Assembly (NCBI GenBank): GCA_014382285.1
Contig: JACNKA010000127.1
Span: 1 to 34,772, forward strand
DNA length: 34,772 bases
Direction of reading: 5' to 3'
From: Nitrospinota bacterium
GTDB lineage: Bacteria > Nitrospinota > Nitrospinia > Nitrospinales > VA-1
A program made the translations under genes and the position numbers. Shown here one piece after another: positions 4,976 through 24,089 of the stretch (the stretch's first letter is position 1; every line of letters starts with the position of its first letter). Below the pieces are notes generated by a model. That model was not told the origin of the DNA. It worked only from the letters and a program-made list of their open reading frames with translations, and searched no databases.

Positions 4976-5097
4976 TGAATTTTCGTCTTATTTTCGCTTT
5001 TTGTGATAAACTGAACCTTCTTGACCGAATTGGAACACTCGTGTAGGTTGAGCCACTAATCGGCATGCCAAAGCAAGTGCTGGCCGAATATTGCAAG

Positions 5098-5150
5098 GTT
5101 GTAAATCACCCCAGCCCCTCTTTGTAAAAGAGGGGTTCATTAACCCCCCA
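5098..5150 (-). repeat. Dispersed C/G-rich repeat, copy 2 (inverted)
   Basis: Read on the minus strand this is GGGGTTAATGAACCCCTC..., an AAGAGGGG hairpin, and CTGGGGTGATTTACAAC, closely matching copy 1 at 2417-2497 in opposite orientation. The hairpin CCCCTCTTtgtaaAAGAGGGG is intact. It ends about 20 bases before the comM start and creates the false N-terminal extension seen in the ORF track. Confidence 0.75.
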
Positions 5151-5171
5151 TCTAACGGAGTGGAGAAATTT

Positions 5172-6707
5172 GTGGTCGCACTCGTTCACAGTGGAGCGGT
5201 TCTGGGCATAGACGGCTATGCGGTCGAGGTGGAAGTCAACCTCTCGCAAGGCCTGCCGGGCATGTCCATCGTTGGCCTGCCTGATGCCGCCGTCAAGGAA
5301 AGTAGCGATCGCGTTTCCGCCGCCATTCGCAACACCCAGTTAGCTCTGCCAGTACGAAGGATCACCATCAACCTCGCCCCTGCCGATATCCGCAAAGAAG
5401 GTTCGGCGTTCGACTTGCCTATCGCTCTCGGCATTCTTGCGGCCAGCGGCATGATCGAAAACGAGCGGTTGAAAAAACTGGTGATTCTCGGCGAACTTTC
5501 TCTCGATGGCCGGGTCAAGCCCATTCGCGGCGCACTCTCCATCACCGCCATGGCACGTGAAAATGGGATGGAAGGCGTTCTTCTGCCCGCGCAAAATGCG
5601 GCGGAAGTTTCTGTCATCGAAGGCATCCCCATTTATCCAATAGAAAATTTACCTCAGGCGGTAGAGTTTTTGTGCGGGAAGCTGGCGCTTCAGGCAGTGA
5701 CCCCTCAACCCCAAGCCAAAACTCTGCACACCAGCGACTATGAATTAGACTTCACCGATGTCAAAGGCCAGCACCATGTCAAACGCGCCCTGGAAATCGC
5801 CGCCTCAGGCGGGCATAACATCCTGCTTATCGGCCCTCCCGGTTCCGGTAAATCCATGCTGGCAAAACGCATCCCGACCATTCTGCCTTCCATGACGCAG
5901 GGGGAAGCCATCACCAGCACAAAAATTCACAGTGTACTCGGTCAATTGAAAAACGGGAACGGACTCTTAAAGCTACGCCCCTTTCGTTCGCCGCATCACA
6001 CCATCTCCGATGCCGGGCTGATCGGCGGTGGGCGCGTGCCCATGCCGGGGGAAGTGTCGATGGCGCATAACGGCGTGTTGTTTCTCGATGAACTGCCCGA
6101 GTTTAAACGCAACGTGCTGGAAGTCCTGCGCCAACCTCTGGAAGAAGGGGAAGTCTCTATATCACGCGCCGCCGGGTCCGTCACCTACCCGGCGAACCTC
6201 ATGCTGGTAGCGGCGATGAACCCCTGCCCCTGCGGTTACCGGTTCGACCCGAAACGCGAATGCGGATGCACACCGATGATGATCAAGAAATATGTCGGGA
6301 AAATATCAGGTCCCCTGCTCGACCGCATCGACCTGCATATCGAAGTGCCGGCACTGGAATACAAAGACCTGTCATCCGAGTCAGGCGGCGAACGTTCCGA
6401 GGCAATTGCATCCAGAGTCGAACAGGCACGCAGTGCCCAGTTAAAACGTTTCCATCAAAGTCCGGAAAACAATTTCAATGCCAACATGAATCCGCATCAA
6501 CTGAAATCCCATTGCGCACTGGATGAAGCGTCGAAAAAGATCATGGCTTTGGCCATCGACAAGTTAGGGCTCAGCGCAAGAGCGCACGACCGCATCCTGA
6601 AAGTAGCGCGTACTATCGCCGATCTGGCCGAATGCGAATCCCTACAGTCCGAACACATCGCCGAAGCCATCCAGTACCGTTCTTTAGACCGCGAAAGCTG
6701 GTTCTAA
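5172..6707 (+). CDS. comM: ComM/YifB-family AAA+ ATPase (Mg-chelatase-like)
   Basis: Hexameric helicase that promotes branch migration during integration of incoming DNA in natural transformation. The ORF has an N-terminal S5-like/LonC-like domain (VHSGAVLGIDGYAVEVEV onward), then the AAA+ core with Walker A GPPGSGKS (about 221-228), Walker B LFLDELPEF, the cysteine-rich CPCGY...CGC segment typical of the family, and a C-terminal lid. The track start at 5091 lies inside a repeat. GTG 5172 has GGAG six bases upstream and gives an N-terminus that aligns with known family members, giving 511 aa. GTG 5160 is an alternative. It is a single gene with no other competence genes beside it, so a role in uptake here is inferred from the family. 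Confidence 0.92.
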   Translation: MVALVHSGAVLGIDGYAVEVEVNLSQGLPGMSIVGLPDAAVKESSDRVSAAIRNTQLALPVRRITINLAPADIRKEGSAFDLPIALGILAASGMIENERLKKLVILGELSLDGRVKPIRGALSITAMARENGMEGVLLPAQNAAEVSVIEGIPIYPIENLPQAVEFLCGKLALQAVTPQPQAKTLHTSDYELDFTDVKGQHHVKRALEIAASGGHNILLIGPPGSGKSMLAKRIPTILPSMTQGEAITSTKIHSVLGQLKNGNGLLKLRPFRSPHHTISDAGLIGGGRVPMPGEVSMAHNGVLFLDELPEFKRNVLEVLRQPLEEGEVSISRAAGSVTYPANLMLVAAMNPCPCGYRFDPKRECGCTPMMIKKYVGKISGPLLDRIDLHIEVPALEYKDLSSESGGERSEAIASRVEQARSAQLKRFHQSPENNFNANMNPHQLKSHCALDEASKKIMALAIDKLGLSARAHDRILKVARTIADLAECESLQSEHIAEAIQYRSLDRESWF

Positions 6708-6906
6708 CTGCTCGGCGCAGGGCCAATGGGTCAGAACATTCTGGAGCGAACGATCATCATTGCGCTTCTGGATTTAGTTTTCAATAATTCCCCCTGATAA
6801 GGGGGATTAAGGGGGTTGCTTCAAAAAATAGTTTTCCTTCTTGCCAGAGTAAGCCCCCACCTATATATAAATCACCGCAACGGTAGCAGAAAAAGAAAGG
6901 ACAAAT
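6708..6906. other. Intergenic region with C-rich hairpin and degenerate gene-end motif
   Basis: Directly after the comM stop comes CTGCTCGGCGCAGGGCCAA, a degenerate copy of the gene-end motif described at 8649. CCCCCTgataAGGGGG at 6790-6805 is a perfect 6-bp hairpin followed by ATTAAGGGGG, resembling the short G/C-run repeats elsewhere in the window and able to act as a terminator-like structure. AAAGGA just before 6907 is the ribosome site of the next gene. Confidence 0.5.
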
Positions 6907-7917: not shown

Positions 7918-8247
7918 CCAATGAGCAAATCCTATTAACTTTCACGACCAGAAGTTTTTAAAAGATGCTAGCAGGAGTAGCAATTCTCGGAAGCCAGCTT
8001 CCCTCCTCTGAAAATGGTTTGATGTCTATTCCTCTCCATCGCCCCCCTCGCCAGAGGGTTTTTGTAGCTAATTCAAGGGAAATGCGTTATCCTTTTAGTC
8101 AGGATAAGTTATTGGAAGTACCCTTGCTACGCCCCCTCTTTTCACACCTCTTCGTTTTCAGGGTTCTAAATCTCAGTCCTTAAGGTTTGCTTCTCAGAGC
8201 AGATTCTCTAAAAGAAATCTATCAATCTTAAATTGTGCGGAGTGAAA
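7918..8247. other. Intergenic region without a convincing gene
   Basis: About 330 bases. The 72-aa ORF at 7965-8183 has no ribosome site or recognisable composition. A small hairpin GGAAGccagCTTCC lies near 7990. The end carries the GCGGAG ribosome site of the lipoprotein gene. I see no RNA gene. Confidence 0.45.
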
Positions 8248-8628
8248 ATGCGGCGTTGTGTGCGTTTGATTGTTGTTGCGGTTTTATGTGTTTTGTTTAC
8301 GGGGTGTGCGGCGGGGAAGGTTTATATGGCCCAGTCCACAGATGACCAGGCTTCCTGCTCAATGCTCGATAGCGAGTTGCAAGGGGCTCAGAAAAAAATA
8401 ACAACTTTGGAAAATACCGATCACACCTTGAAAAACCTGCGCGATCTCGCTCTTTCGGCGGCGGGGTTTGCCTTCCCCCCTCTCGGAATATTGAACGCTA
8501 TATTGACGGTGTCTGATTCTCACGTAGCGGATCTGGCAGAAACCGAAGCTTTGAAAGACCGGTCCGATAGCATGACTGAAATTTCCAACCAAAAAGAATG
8601 CGGCAACAAATACGCCCAACGCCACTAG
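8248..8628 (+). CDS. Small lipoprotein of unknown function
   Basis: From ATG 8248 (GGAG five bases upstream; the track's TTG start at 8233 is less likely) the product is 126 aa. It begins MRRCVRLIVVAVLCVLFTGC, a lipoprotein signal peptide with lipobox FTGC and lipidated Cys20. The mature part is polar and helical (SELQGAQKKITTLENTDHTLKNL could form a short coiled coil), with a hydrophobic stretch LALSAAGFAFPPLGILNAILTV near residues 72-93 that could insert in or lie on the membrane. No family is recognised. The final His codon and TAG stop (CACTAG) are themselves a degenerate copy of the repeat that forms the array just downstream. Confidence 0.75.
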   Translation: MRRCVRLIVVAVLCVLFTGCAAGKVYMAQSTDDQASCSMLDSELQGAQKKITTLENTDHTLKNLRDLALSAAGFAFPPLGILNAILTVSDSHVADLAETEALKDRSDSMTEISNQKECGNKYAQRH

Positions 8629-8648
8629 GCGTGAGGCCAACTAGCAAC
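8623..8648 (+). repeat. Degenerate array unit start overlapping a stop codon
   Basis: CACTAGGCGTGAGGCCAAC resembles the array unit start CACTCGGCGTGGGGCC. Its CAC-TAG is the last codon and stop of the lipoprotein gene. It directly abuts the first full array unit. Confidence 0.6.
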
Positions 8649-9009
8649 CACTCGGCGTGGGGCCAGCGTGCAATAATCGTTGAGCAATCAACACGCTTGC
8701 GCGCAATTTAGAACCCTTTTAATTTGCCTGCGGAGGTTACTCCGCCCACTCGGCGTGGGGCCAGCGTGCAATAATCGTTGAGCAATCAACACGCTTGCGC
8801 GCAATTTAGAACCCTTTTAATTTGCCTGCGGAGGTTACTCCGCCCACTCGGCGTGGGGCCGGCTAGCAATTATAGTTAAGCAATCAATACACTTGCGCGC
8901 AATTTAGAACCCTTTTAATTTGCCTGCGGAGGTACTCCACCCACTCGGCGTGGGGCCGACTAGCAATTATAGTTAAGCAATCAATACACTTGCGCGCAGT
9001 TTAGAACCC
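8649..9009. repeat. Tandem array of four ~98-bp units
   Basis: Units begin at CACTCGGCGTGGGGCC at 8649, 8747, 8845 and 8942, so periods are 98, 98 and 97 bases; the fourth is cut off near 9009. Units 1 and 2 are almost identical, and 3 and 4 share their own changes. Each holds the palindrome TTGCGCGCAA (changed at one base in unit 4); full units also hold a hairpin, perfect in the first two as GCGGAGgttaCTCCGC. Units 1 and 2 have a GCGTG...CACGC stem as well. The period is not a multiple of three, there are no spacers and no ORF runs through it. It fills the gap between two convergent genes. Confidence 0.9.
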
Positions 9010-10179: not shown

Positions 10180-10728
10180 ATGTTTAATTTACCGTTGCAT
10201 CCCATTGTGGTTCATTTCCCCATTGTTCTGGGTACCTTGCTGCCTTTTTTGGCATTATTGCTTTGGTGGGCCATTAAGAAGGATCATCTGCAACAAAATG
10301 TCTGGATACTGGTGACGGTGATGGCCCTGACCTATGGAGCCTCTGCCATCGTTGCGGTGGAGCTTGGCGAGGAGGACGAAGAAAAGGTGGAAAAAGTCGT
10401 ATCTGAAAAGGTGATTGAAGAGCATGAAGAAGCTGCTGAGATGATCCCCTGGGTAGCGGGCACATTATTTCTGGTTTCTATTGCCGGGGTGGTTAAGAAA
10501 AACTCACACGCCTTGCGTTTAGGACTGGCAGTGTTGAGTCTGGTCGCGCTCATCCCGTTGGCCTCTGCTGGGCACACGGGTGGAGAACTGGTCTACCAGC
10601 ATGGAGCTGCTATCGCACACCTGCCCACAGACAAGCAGGCCATGATCGAATCGGGAAAGTTTCTCATAAAGCATGAGGATAGTGATAAAGACAAAGATAA
10701 GGACAAAGATAAGGACAAAGACGACTAG
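10180..10728 (+). CDS. DUF2231-family membrane protein with Asp-Lys repeat tail
   Basis: Integral membrane protein of 182 aa. The start LHPIVVHFPIVLGTLLPFLALLLWW carries the HPxxVHFP motif of DUF2231, whose histidines suggest heme or metal binding in the membrane. About four hydrophobic segments are visible: 7-30, 40-60, 87-103 and 112-128. The central loop is very acidic and helical (EEDEEKVEKVVSEKVIEEHEEAAE). A GHTGGELVYQHG motif follows the last helix, as is usual in this family. The C-terminus is a run of DK dipeptides encoded by a six-base microsatellite. AGGAG lies seven bases before ATG. It is alone, with a strong hairpin after the stop. Function of the family is not established. Confidence 0.8.
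   Translation: MFNLPLHPIVVHFPIVLGTLLPFLALLLWWAIKKDHLQQNVWILVTVMALTYGASAIVAVELGEEDEEKVEKVVSEKVIEEHEEAAEMIPWVAGTLFLVSIAGVVKKNSHALRLGLAVLSLVALIPLASAGHTGGELVYQHGAAIAHLPTDKQAMIESGKFLIKHEDSDKDKDKDKDKDKDD
10684..10719 (+). repeat. Hexanucleotide microsatellite encoding (Asp-Lys)n
   Basis: Six in-frame units of GAYAAR (GATAAA, GACAAA, GATAAG...) near the 3' end of the DUF2231 gene. Length change by slippage would add or remove DK pairs without shifting the frame. Confidence 0.8.
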
Positions 10729-16769: not shown

Positions 16770-17678
16770 ATGCAAAAACTCATCCACAAAGCAGAAATTC
16801 TTCTAGAAGCTCTGCCTTACATCAAAAGCTTCTACGGTAAAACCATCGTCATCAAATACGGCGGCAATGCCATGGTTTCGGATGATCTCAAGGAAAATTT
16901 CGCCCTCGATATTGTCATGATGAAATACATCGGCATAAACCCGGTTGTGGTTCACGGGGGCGGCCCGCAGATCGACAAAACCCTCAAGGCGCTGGGAATT
17001 CAATCACAATTTGTTGAGGGGCAACGTGTAACCAGCAAGGAAACCATTGATGTGGTGGAAATGGTTCTTGGCGGAAAAGTGAATAAAGAGATTGTTTCCC
17101 TGATCAACAATCAAGGAGGCAATGCGGTGGGCATCACCGGAAAAGATGGTGACCTGATTTTTGCAAAACGGCATAAAAAGGTGAAGCATTCGCCAGAAAC
17201 GGACCGCCCGGAAATTATTGACCTGGGGCTGGTCGGCGAGATCACTAAAGTGAACCCGCGAATTTTGGAGACACTGGACAAGAGTGGTTTTATTCCCGTT
17301 ATCGCACCCATCGGCAGAGGGGAAAACGGAGAAACGCTCAACATTAATGCCGACTTTGTGGCCTCTCATATCGCATCAGCTCTGAAAGCCGAAAAGTTGA
17401 TTTTGATGACCGATACCGAAGGGGTAAAAAATAAAGCTGGAAAACTACAATCTGGTCTCAGCCGAAAAAATGCTTCCGACCTGATTCGAAGTAAGGTCAT
17501 TCGCGATGGGATGCTGCCAAAAGTCAATTGTTGTCTGGATGCTCTTAAATCCGGAGTCCATAAAACTCACATCATTGATGGCCGTGTTCGGCACGCCTTG
17601 TTACTGGAGGTTTTCACAGCAGAAGGTATCGGAACCCAAATAGTGGAAAAAGCGAATGATATGAAAACAGCCCACTAG
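16770..17678 (+). CDS. argB: Acetylglutamate kinase
   Basis: Phosphorylates N-acetylglutamate in arginine biosynthesis. The 302-aa protein shows KYGGNAM (ATP phosphate loop), VVHGGGPQIDKTL (substrate-binding) and NINADFVASHIASALKAEKLILMTDTEGV (kinase core). Length and motifs fit the arginine-sensitive long form with an N-terminal helix (MQKLIHKAEILLEALPYIK). No other arg gene is nearby. The last His codon and TAG stop (CACTAG) fall in a degenerate copy of the gene-end repeat, CACTAGCCGTGGAGGC. Confidence 0.95.
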   Translation: MQKLIHKAEILLEALPYIKSFYGKTIVIKYGGNAMVSDDLKENFALDIVMMKYIGINPVVVHGGGPQIDKTLKALGIQSQFVEGQRVTSKETIDVVEMVLGGKVNKEIVSLINNQGGNAVGITGKDGDLIFAKRHKKVKHSPETDRPEIIDLGLVGEITKVNPRILETLDKSGFIPVIAPIGRGENGETLNINADFVASHIASALKAEKLILMTDTEGVKNKAGKLQSGLSRKNASDLIRSKVIRDGMLPKVNCCLDALKSGVHKTHIIDGRVRHALLLEVFTAEGIGTQIVEKANDMKTAH

Positions 17679-17688
17679 CCGTGGAGGC
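17673..17688 (+). repeat. Degenerate gene-end repeat at the argB stop
   Basis: CACTAGCCGTGGAGGC resembles the array motif CACTCGGCGTGGGGCC. As at 8623, the CAC-TAG is the last codon and stop of the gene. Confidence 0.45.
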
Positions 17689-17765
17689 AAATGACAAGCA
17701 CCGCTAAGCCGAGAGAACCCGGCCAATTAACGCCATTGCAGTGAAACCTGCACGGTGGGTTAATA

Positions 17766-22249: not shown

Positions 22250-23926
22250 ATGACACCTCTAAACTTGAAAAGCAGAGCTATAACCCAAGGGAACCGACGA
22301 GCCCCCAACCGCGCCATGTTAAGAGCGGTGGGTTTTACCGACGATGATTTCGACAAGCCCATAATTGGAGTCGCTAATGGGCAAAGTACCATCACTCCCT
22401 GTAACGCAGGGCTCGGCAAACTAGCTGATATCGCTTCAGCAAAAATCCGAACAAGTGGAGGTATGCCGCAAATGTTCGGAACCATCACCGTTAGCGATGG
22501 TATTTCCATGGGAACAGAAGGCATGAAATGTTCTCTGGTCAGCCGGGATGTGATCGCCGACTCCATCGAAACAGTTTGCCGTGGTGCCAGCATGGATGCC
22601 GTCATCTGCATAGGTGGTTGTGATAAAAATATGCCAGGAGCCATGATCGCCATGGCCCGGTTGAACATTCCTGGAATCTTCGTCTATGGCGGCACCATCA
22701 AACCCGGCAAGTTGGACGGCAAGGATCTGACCGTCGTCAACGTCTTTGAAGCGGTAGGGCAGTTTGGTGCTGGCTCCATTGATCAGAAGGAACTCACGGA
22801 TATCGAGAAAAATGCCTGTCCGGGTTTAGGTTCTTGCGGCGGTATGTTCACCGCCAACACAATGTCTTCTGCCTTTGAAACAATGGGCATGAGCCTGCCC
22901 TACAGTTCCACCATGGCCAATGAAGACAAGGACAAAGAAATCAGCGCAGGGGAAAGCGCGAAGGCTCTTTTAAATATGATTGAAAAGAATATTCTGCCAC
23001 GAGACATCATGACGCGGAAAGCTTTCGAAAATGCCATCGCAGTAATTATGGCTGTCGGCGGCTCCACCAATGCCGTCTTGCATCTTCTTGCAATTGCCCA
23101 CTCCGCCGGAGTGCCGTTGACCATTGATGACTTTGAAACTATCAGGAAGAAGATTCCTCTTTTTTGCGATTTAAAACCGTCAGGAAAATATGTTGCCATT
23201 GACCTGCACCATGCCGGTGGAATTCCACAAGTCATGAAGATGATGTTGAATGCAGGGCTCCTGCACGGCGATTGCATGACAGTGACAGGGAAAACTATCG
23301 CGGAAAACCTGAAAGATGTTCCCGACCAACCTCGGGAAGATCAGGATGTAATTCTCCCGCTGGATCGGCCAAAGGCACCCGAAGGCCATTTGGTTATTCT
23401 TAAGGGCAATCTCTGCAAGGAGGGCGCGGTCGCAAAAGTTTCCGGTGTTAAGACCCGAAAATTCACCGGCCCGGCACGTGTCTTTAATTCTGAAGAAGAA
23501 TGTCTCGATGCTATTCTCGATAACCGCATCAAGGCAGGCGATGTCCTGGTCATTCGTTTTGAGGGCCCAAAAGGGGGGCCGGGCATGCGCGAAATGCTGG
23601 CTCCCACCGCTGCCATTGTCGGCGAAGGGCTGGGGGATAAAGTCGCACTCATCACCGATGGTCGATTTTCTGGCGGTACTTATGGAATCGTTATCGGCCA
23701 CATCGCACCCGAGGCACAAATAGGCGGGCCGCTGGCTCTCCTTAAAGACAACGATACCATCGCCATTGATATGGATGCGAACGAGTTAAACGTAGAGTTA
23801 ACCGATGAAGAACTTGAAGAAAGAAGAAAAGGATTCGTCGCTCCAGCAATAAAATATCAGTCGGGTGTATTGGCTAAATACGCAAAACTTGTCGGCACTG
23901 CCAGTAAAGGTGCCGTGACCGACTAA
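22250..23926 (+). CDS. ilvD: Dihydroxy-acid dehydratase
   Basis: Iron-sulfur dehydratase of valine, isoleucine and pantothenate synthesis, removing water from 2,3-dihydroxy-3-methyl acids. The 558-aa protein has C51, C124 ([12 protein letters not shown]) and C196 ([15 protein letters not shown]) as cluster ligands, and the conserved C-terminal [12 protein letters not shown] and [15 protein letters not shown] lies eight bases before ATG. The usual ilv partners are not adjacent. One base after the TAA lies a full copy of the gene-end repeat. Confidence 0.96.
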
Positions 23927-23927
23927 C

Positions 23928-23950
23928 CACTCGGCGTGGGGCCAACTTGC
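23928..23950 (+). repeat. Gene-end repeat after ilvD
   Basis: CACTCGGCGTGGGGCCAACT begins one base after the ilvD stop. Its first 16 bases are identical to the start of the array units at 8649-9009. Confidence 0.75.
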
Positions 23951-24032
23951 AATGGCCATTACTGCATACAAACCGTGTCGACGGCTTAATGTGGTTTTGA
24001 AAAACTACGGCCCGATAGTCTGAGGGGCTGAT

Positions 24033-24058
24033 GGCTGGGGTGATTCACAAACTCTCAT
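24033..24058 (+). repeat. Dispersed C/G-rich repeat, copy 3 (right end only)
   Basis: GGCTGGGGTGATTCACAAACTCTCAT matches the right end of copy 1 at 2417-2497 and its flank with a few changes. Only this end is present. Confidence 0.55.
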
Positions 24059-24089
24059 ACAAAATGCTGGTTACTCGGGTCAAGTTGTG

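Follow-up and report, generated by a model that had tools for sequence, protein, structure and literature searches.

A ~97-nt palindromic repeat placed at stop codons in Nitrospina

Copies of the repeat and their host genes

The window, the whole 34,772-nt stretch of contig JACNKA010000127.1 from a Nitrospinota bacterium, contains three genes identified by NCBIfam (ilvD, argB and comM/YifB) and an open reading frame of 131 aa, each of which ends against or inside a copy of one sequence (Table 1). A sequence-only reading had pointed to a short motif at these four stops. This motif forms just one terminus of a longer element that the reading had not recognized, an imperfectly palindromic, interspersed repeat of ~97 nt whose 5' head is represented in the window by CACTCGGCGTGGGGCC. 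At ilvD, the head (CCACTCGGCGTGGGGCC) follows the TAA directly, and the CACTCGG previously noted at 23928 lies one base inside it. The head behind comM (CTGCTCGGCGCAGGGCC) likewise begins directly after the stop codon, as had been read. In argB, the terminal CAC-TAG is indeed the final His codon and stop, and both are located within CCACTAGCCGTGG, such that the head supplies the stop codon. The fourth site, where CCACTAGGCGTGAGGCC runs over the stop of the 131-aa frame, is equally real as a placement, although the label of lipoprotein gene given to that frame was not confirmed. It is followed by four array units with spacings of 98, 98 and 97 nt.

Table 1. Positions of the repeat copies and their host genes in the window
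Feature	Position	Strand	Remarks
comM/YifB, Mg-chelatase-like AAA ATPase, host gene	5160..6707	+	NCBIfam; TAA 6705-6707
Head with altered, still complementary stem, CTGC-TCGGC-GCAG-G-GCC	6708..6724	+	Abuts comM TAA
ORF, 131 aa, stop within element head	8233..8628	+	NCBIfam: no match
Truncated head unit, 26 nt	8622..8647	+	Loop TAG (8626-8628) is the upstream ORF stop
Array unit 1, 98 nt	8648..8745	+	Covariance-model match
Array unit 2, identical to unit 1	8746..8843	+	Covariance-model match
Array unit 3, 97 nt, about 86% identical	8844..8940	+	Covariance-model match
Array unit 4, truncated	8941..9009	+	Covariance-model match
argB, acetylglutamate kinase, host gene	16770..17678	+	NCBIfam; C-terminus one His longer than most relatives; final CAC-TAG 17673-17678, stop TAG 17676-17678
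Decayed copy, opposite orientation; 3'-type head CCAC-TAGCC-GTGG-A-GGC at 17672-17688	17672..17720	-	
ilvD, dihydroxy-acid dehydratase, host gene outside element	22250..23926	+	NCBIfam
Element copy, head CCAC-TCGGC-GTGG-G-GCC (23927-23943)	23927..24017	+	Covariance-model match; abuts ilvD TAA (23924-23926)

Two further repeats were observed in the window. A second family (2446-2499, 5096-5149 and 24033-24066) is characterized by GGGGCTGGGGTGATTYACA with a CCCCTCTTT..AAAGAGGGG hairpin and includes inverted copies that are 91% alike over 54 nt. A short tandem repeat, GATAAGGACAAA, is present in 3.2 copies at 10684-10721, near the end of the reading frame at 10180-10728.

Anatomy, distribution and fold of the element

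The motif corresponds to the first 16-17 nt of the element. Allowing up to three mismatches, the 16-mer matches the window six times against an expectation of 0.2, and the 2.97-Mb genome 152 times against 22 for the reversed control; a covariance model of the element, built from eight copies, yields 151 matches in the same genome at E<=1. On the other strand, the 3' end of the palindrome also reads as a head (NNNC-TAGCC-GNNN-NGGC), and each element is thus bounded by two outward-facing heads of 17 nt. A head consists of a five-base TNGNC loop, in which TAG is usual, closed by a 4-bp stem, and of three further base pairs that join the loop to the bases just behind the stem. Tandem units are spaced by 97-100 nt when they comprise the element and by 26-27 nt when they comprise only the head. 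A number of copies retain the body but have a different hairpin at the head or within it. Hairpins of this kind (CCGGCGAGCCGCCGG and CCAGCGTGACGCTGG), found at comM of congener G015 (L288), at one locus of the genome under study (L068) and at two loci of relatives (L192 and L225), look as if newer ones insert at the same stop-adjacent point.

Among congeners, motif matches range from 0-2 up to 269, with roughly 80-270 sites in those Nitrospina genomes that carry the repeat, a difference in copy number of more than 100-fold. Most other genera of the Nitrospinaceae, the family to which the genome under study belongs, have almost no matches, and almost every named public record with the longer motif is a Nitrospina or Nitrospinaceae MAG. 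One genome from another genus of the family (G035, genus g8) gave 52 model matches and its sister genomes none, which points to local transfer or a mixed bin. Carriage by viruses was rejected, as viral contigs contained no exact match to a 26-nt pattern. The papers searched contained no description of this repeat in Nitrospina.

The fold of the head is preserved by compensatory change. Across 79 distinct heads, 94.9% of the cells in the stem (positions 1-4/10-13) and the second helix (7-9/15-17) are paired, with 47 double changes; this level was reached in none of 500 shuffles and is lost when the partners are slid. When every column pair of 213 copies was ranked in an unsupervised scan, 2-12, 3-11, 1-13 and 8-16 were among the top five. 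The same scan detected no covariation for long-range pairing between the arms of the 97-nt palindrome, and a functional RNA fold involving the whole palindrome was therefore rejected. Because the bases vary within one genome while complementarity stays, it is a folded strand that is preserved, either RNA or single-stranded DNA, rather than a fixed duplex sequence. The two helices are interleaved and both covary, but a one-nucleotide connector makes their simultaneous formation as an H-type pseudoknot tight, and they may instead be alternative hairpins.

Replication-linked correction of imperfect hairpins, which would render stems self-complementary, could account for part of this covariation. 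Quasi-palindrome correction during replication is established in bacteria. As the full explanation, with complementarity arising without selection and the structure not being recognized by anything, such correction is quite unlikely, given that the second helix, between the loop and the downstream GCC/GGC, covaries as well, while the pairing of whole arms does not.

Placement relative to stop codons

Gene calling relied on open frames and codon usage and covered 510 kb, in stretches that had been picked for containing copies and not for their distance to stops. A same-strand stop lies within 10 nt of the 5' end in 43 of 100 mapped copies, compared to 1.9% of random intergenic points from the same stretches (binomial p about 1e-46); none of the 100 5' ends is near a same-strand start, and none is near an opposite-strand stop. 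The distances are discrete, with 14 copies at exactly 0, 16 at -7, 6 at -23 and 3 at -29. The element itself holds TAG at positions 5-7, 21-23 and 27-29, and the latter three peaks therefore arise partly by construction, that at -7 reflecting copies in which the TAG of the head loop becomes the stop of the gene. This effect does not touch the peaks at 0 and above, which are decisive for placement.

As a null, each element was re-dropped at random within its own intergenic space. In the genome under study, 13 copies lie exactly 0 nt from a stop against 0.46 expected from this null, and 24 lie within 10 nt against 3.8; at independent loci in other Nitrospina genomes, 14 copies are at exactly 0 nt against 0.96 expected. 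Random insertion followed only by purifying selection, by which copies would be near stops simply because little other room is available, fits the small number of copies inside genes (4 and 5). As a sole cause it is refuted by the re-drop null, and the like behavior of high- and low-scoring copies speaks against it as well, leaving it very improbable. The equal frequency of stop contact in high- and low-scoring copies also argues against a slow drift toward stops. The earlier claim that placement at gene ends is not due to chance is thus strongly supported by enrichment in two data sets; the contrary outcome that it had named, a genome scan with no enrichment near stop codons, did not occur.

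Copies are situated at the 3' ends of genes and may face either way. Their 3' ends touch the stops of opposite-strand genes in 17 of 44 cases in the genome under study and 14 of 70 in relatives, and elements are enriched in convergent intergenic spaces and depleted in divergent ones. At distance 0, CTAA is over-represented (14/36 vs 10%) and TGA is under-represented. A fixed sequence target at stops was rejected, since copies away from genes do not have a CTAA-type flank. A general excess of hairpins behind stops was also considered in congener G002; it is small and mostly due to the repeat and its variant heads.

A comparison of orthologous genes locates the same contact in other species. The position of the ilvD stop codon is the same across 15 congeners; the head lies exactly behind this stop or within 2 bases of it in G000, G006, G003, G011 and G005, other hairpins occupy the position in G015 and G014, and a short plain spacer is found in G008 and G010. 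The head is directly behind the comM stop in G000, G012 and G011, and in G015 a different hairpin lies behind that stop, directly before an apparent older head. In G000 and G003, the TAG of the head has become the argB stop, which extends the gene by one His codon compared with most relatives. Of 23 stop-contact genes with orthologs in the sampled part of G002, roughly half have a head-like sequence there as judged by eye, which would also fit old copies kept for a function; where G002 has no head, the genes of the genome under study lose about 0-9 residues relative to their orthologs.

These observations bear on whether the head acts as a functional 3'-UTR RNA element, folding behind the stop to act on the mRNA and being kept by selection, with mobility secondary. 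Its action would consist of protecting 3' ends or of limiting read-through or convergent transcription. Covariation confined to the head and absent from the whole palindrome, the fixed position relative to the stop, the presence of the head or a different hairpin at the same ilvD, comM or argB stop in several congeners, and the enrichment between convergent genes are all consistent with such a role. It is nonetheless a rather doubtful reading, as most genes have no copy and the copy number varies so widely between congeners. A U-tract is missing, and the lower frequency of terminator-like sites next to elements is not significant (4/114 vs 17/216, p=0.16). An intrinsic terminator was rejected, given that a scan of the coding strand found none at heads and that no T run follows head or tail. 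Rfam gave no match to the element at E<=1 in six loci or at gathering scores in the window; sub-threshold matches to miRNA families were attributable to other hairpin repeats. Of the two explanations offered by the sequence-only reading, a 3'-end element, in the sense of an RNA function, is possible but lacks these signatures.

Relation to known repeats and a proposed mode of spread

The evidence agrees best with the other explanation, that the repeat inserts preferentially at gene ends: copy number varies greatly among species, both occupied and unoccupied sites exist, and stop contact is as frequent in high-scoring copies as in low-scoring ones. We consider the element to be, with reasonable probability, a non-autonomous REP/BIME-like repeat of Nitrospina whose insertion or retention is centered on stop codons. 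The repeat, its structure, its placement and its presence or absence between species are direct observations. Mobility, recognition as a single strand and targeting are what we infer from them; no filled and empty pair of sites with both flanks alignable was found, and transposition is thus likewise deduced.

REP sequences are short palindromic units that occur singly, as inverted pairs or in clusters, are intergenic and have no coding capacity (PMC3733652). REP families are found chiefly in tandem and convergent intergenic spaces, <20 bp from the 3' end of the upstream gene, and GTAG REP termini often supply a TAG stop (PMC3733652). The Nitrospina repeat was tested for these features and resembles REPs in that its numerous palindromic copies lie in intergenic space near the 3' ends of genes and its termini provide TAG. 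It differs in that its 79 distinct heads (NNNC-TNGNC-GNNN) have variable first bases and no GTAG/CGTC end, its TAG is located in the loop of the hairpin, this loop is tied to downstream bases by a further short helix, its placement at stops is exact where that of REPs is merely near, and its genome has no RAYT-type Y1 transposase. We do not claim membership in the tagged REPs, because neither the GTAG/CGTC tag nor a linked transposase was found when looked for. The kind of element is thus already known, and we read the Nitrospina repeat as a separate REP/BIME-like family with unusually exact placement at stops.

Mycobacterial interspersed repetitive units (MIRU) likewise reside at gene ends, are oriented with the upstream gene and occur as tandem units, each from tens of bp to about 100 bp long. 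They lie at overlapping stop and start codons within operons. The Nitrospina repeat belongs to another phylum, is different in sequence and is enriched in convergent spaces. ERIC and YPAL/RU-2 of enterobacteria are also palindromic, 100-170 bp in length, present in many copies and presumed to be non-autonomous mobile elements, and YPAL has been described as co-translated with upstream genes (PMC2229807). Their sequences are unrelated to the Nitrospina repeat, and YPAL generates target duplications of 3-26 bp (PMC2229807), whereas none were detected here.

That last result also concerns a classical MITE, which would be what is left of a DDE insertion sequence, with terminal inverted repeats, and would be moved by a transposase elsewhere in the genus. 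A length of ~97 nt, inverted ends, high copy number and the lack of coding capacity would all suit such an element, and terminal inverted repeats, albeit imperfect, are present in the 71 full-length copies. However, these copies show no target-site duplication above shuffled flanks, their ends vary with compensation, unlike the terminal repeats bound by a transposase, and no larger transposase-bearing relative was seen in the sampled stretches, where the systematic search covered Y1 transposases. A MITE is consequently improbable.

The Y1 transposase (PF01797) is absent from the genome under study, the highest-copy species, G015, G003 and G011, and is present in 4 of 16 congeners, as RAYT-like proteins of ~325 aa (L343, L344, L345 and L346). 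Beside these four genes, we found neither a head nor a full copy, and only a weak body fragment at L346. Mobilization by a RAYT/Y1 enzyme was therefore rejected, as the own and highest-copy genomes have no PF01797 and no linkage is seen in the genus.

For a REP/BIME-like element that does move, we propose that a candidate mobilizing machinery would recognize the folded single strand, as ssDNA or RNA, and that insertion would occur, or persist, preferentially in the last codons of a gene or just behind its stop. The head would then land exactly behind the stop, or its own TAG would replace it. With stop codons in two of the three reading frames at either end, an insertion of this type would remove no more than a few residues from the protein or extend it by a short tag such as RRGAN or RRGANEQ. 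A more specific and unlikely version holds that the head is recognized and inserted where ribosomes terminate, on the transcript or on an open strand, with its built-in stops and its docking behind native stops as consequences.

The C-termini of host proteins are rewritten by the repeat, and a dozen or more unrelated proteins terminate in element-encoded tails such as TRRGAN, TGRGAN or RRGANEQ. Proteins sharing an element-encoded C-terminal peptide include those at L010, L037, L102, L115 and L135 of the genome under study, among others. A repeated C-terminal tag of this sort could affect protein stability. Element-derived peptides also join host proteins in the case of the Rickettsia palindromic elements, which, as cited in PMC3733652, are in frame inside genes, whereas the Nitrospina repeat contributes only C-terminal tags.

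REP-like sequences are known to gather near gene 3' ends. With placement resolved to the base and replicated across the genus, and with a head in which two helices covary and a stop codon is built in, the Nitrospina repeat offers a clean natural system for asking whether REP-like repeats aim at gene ends or are tolerated there.
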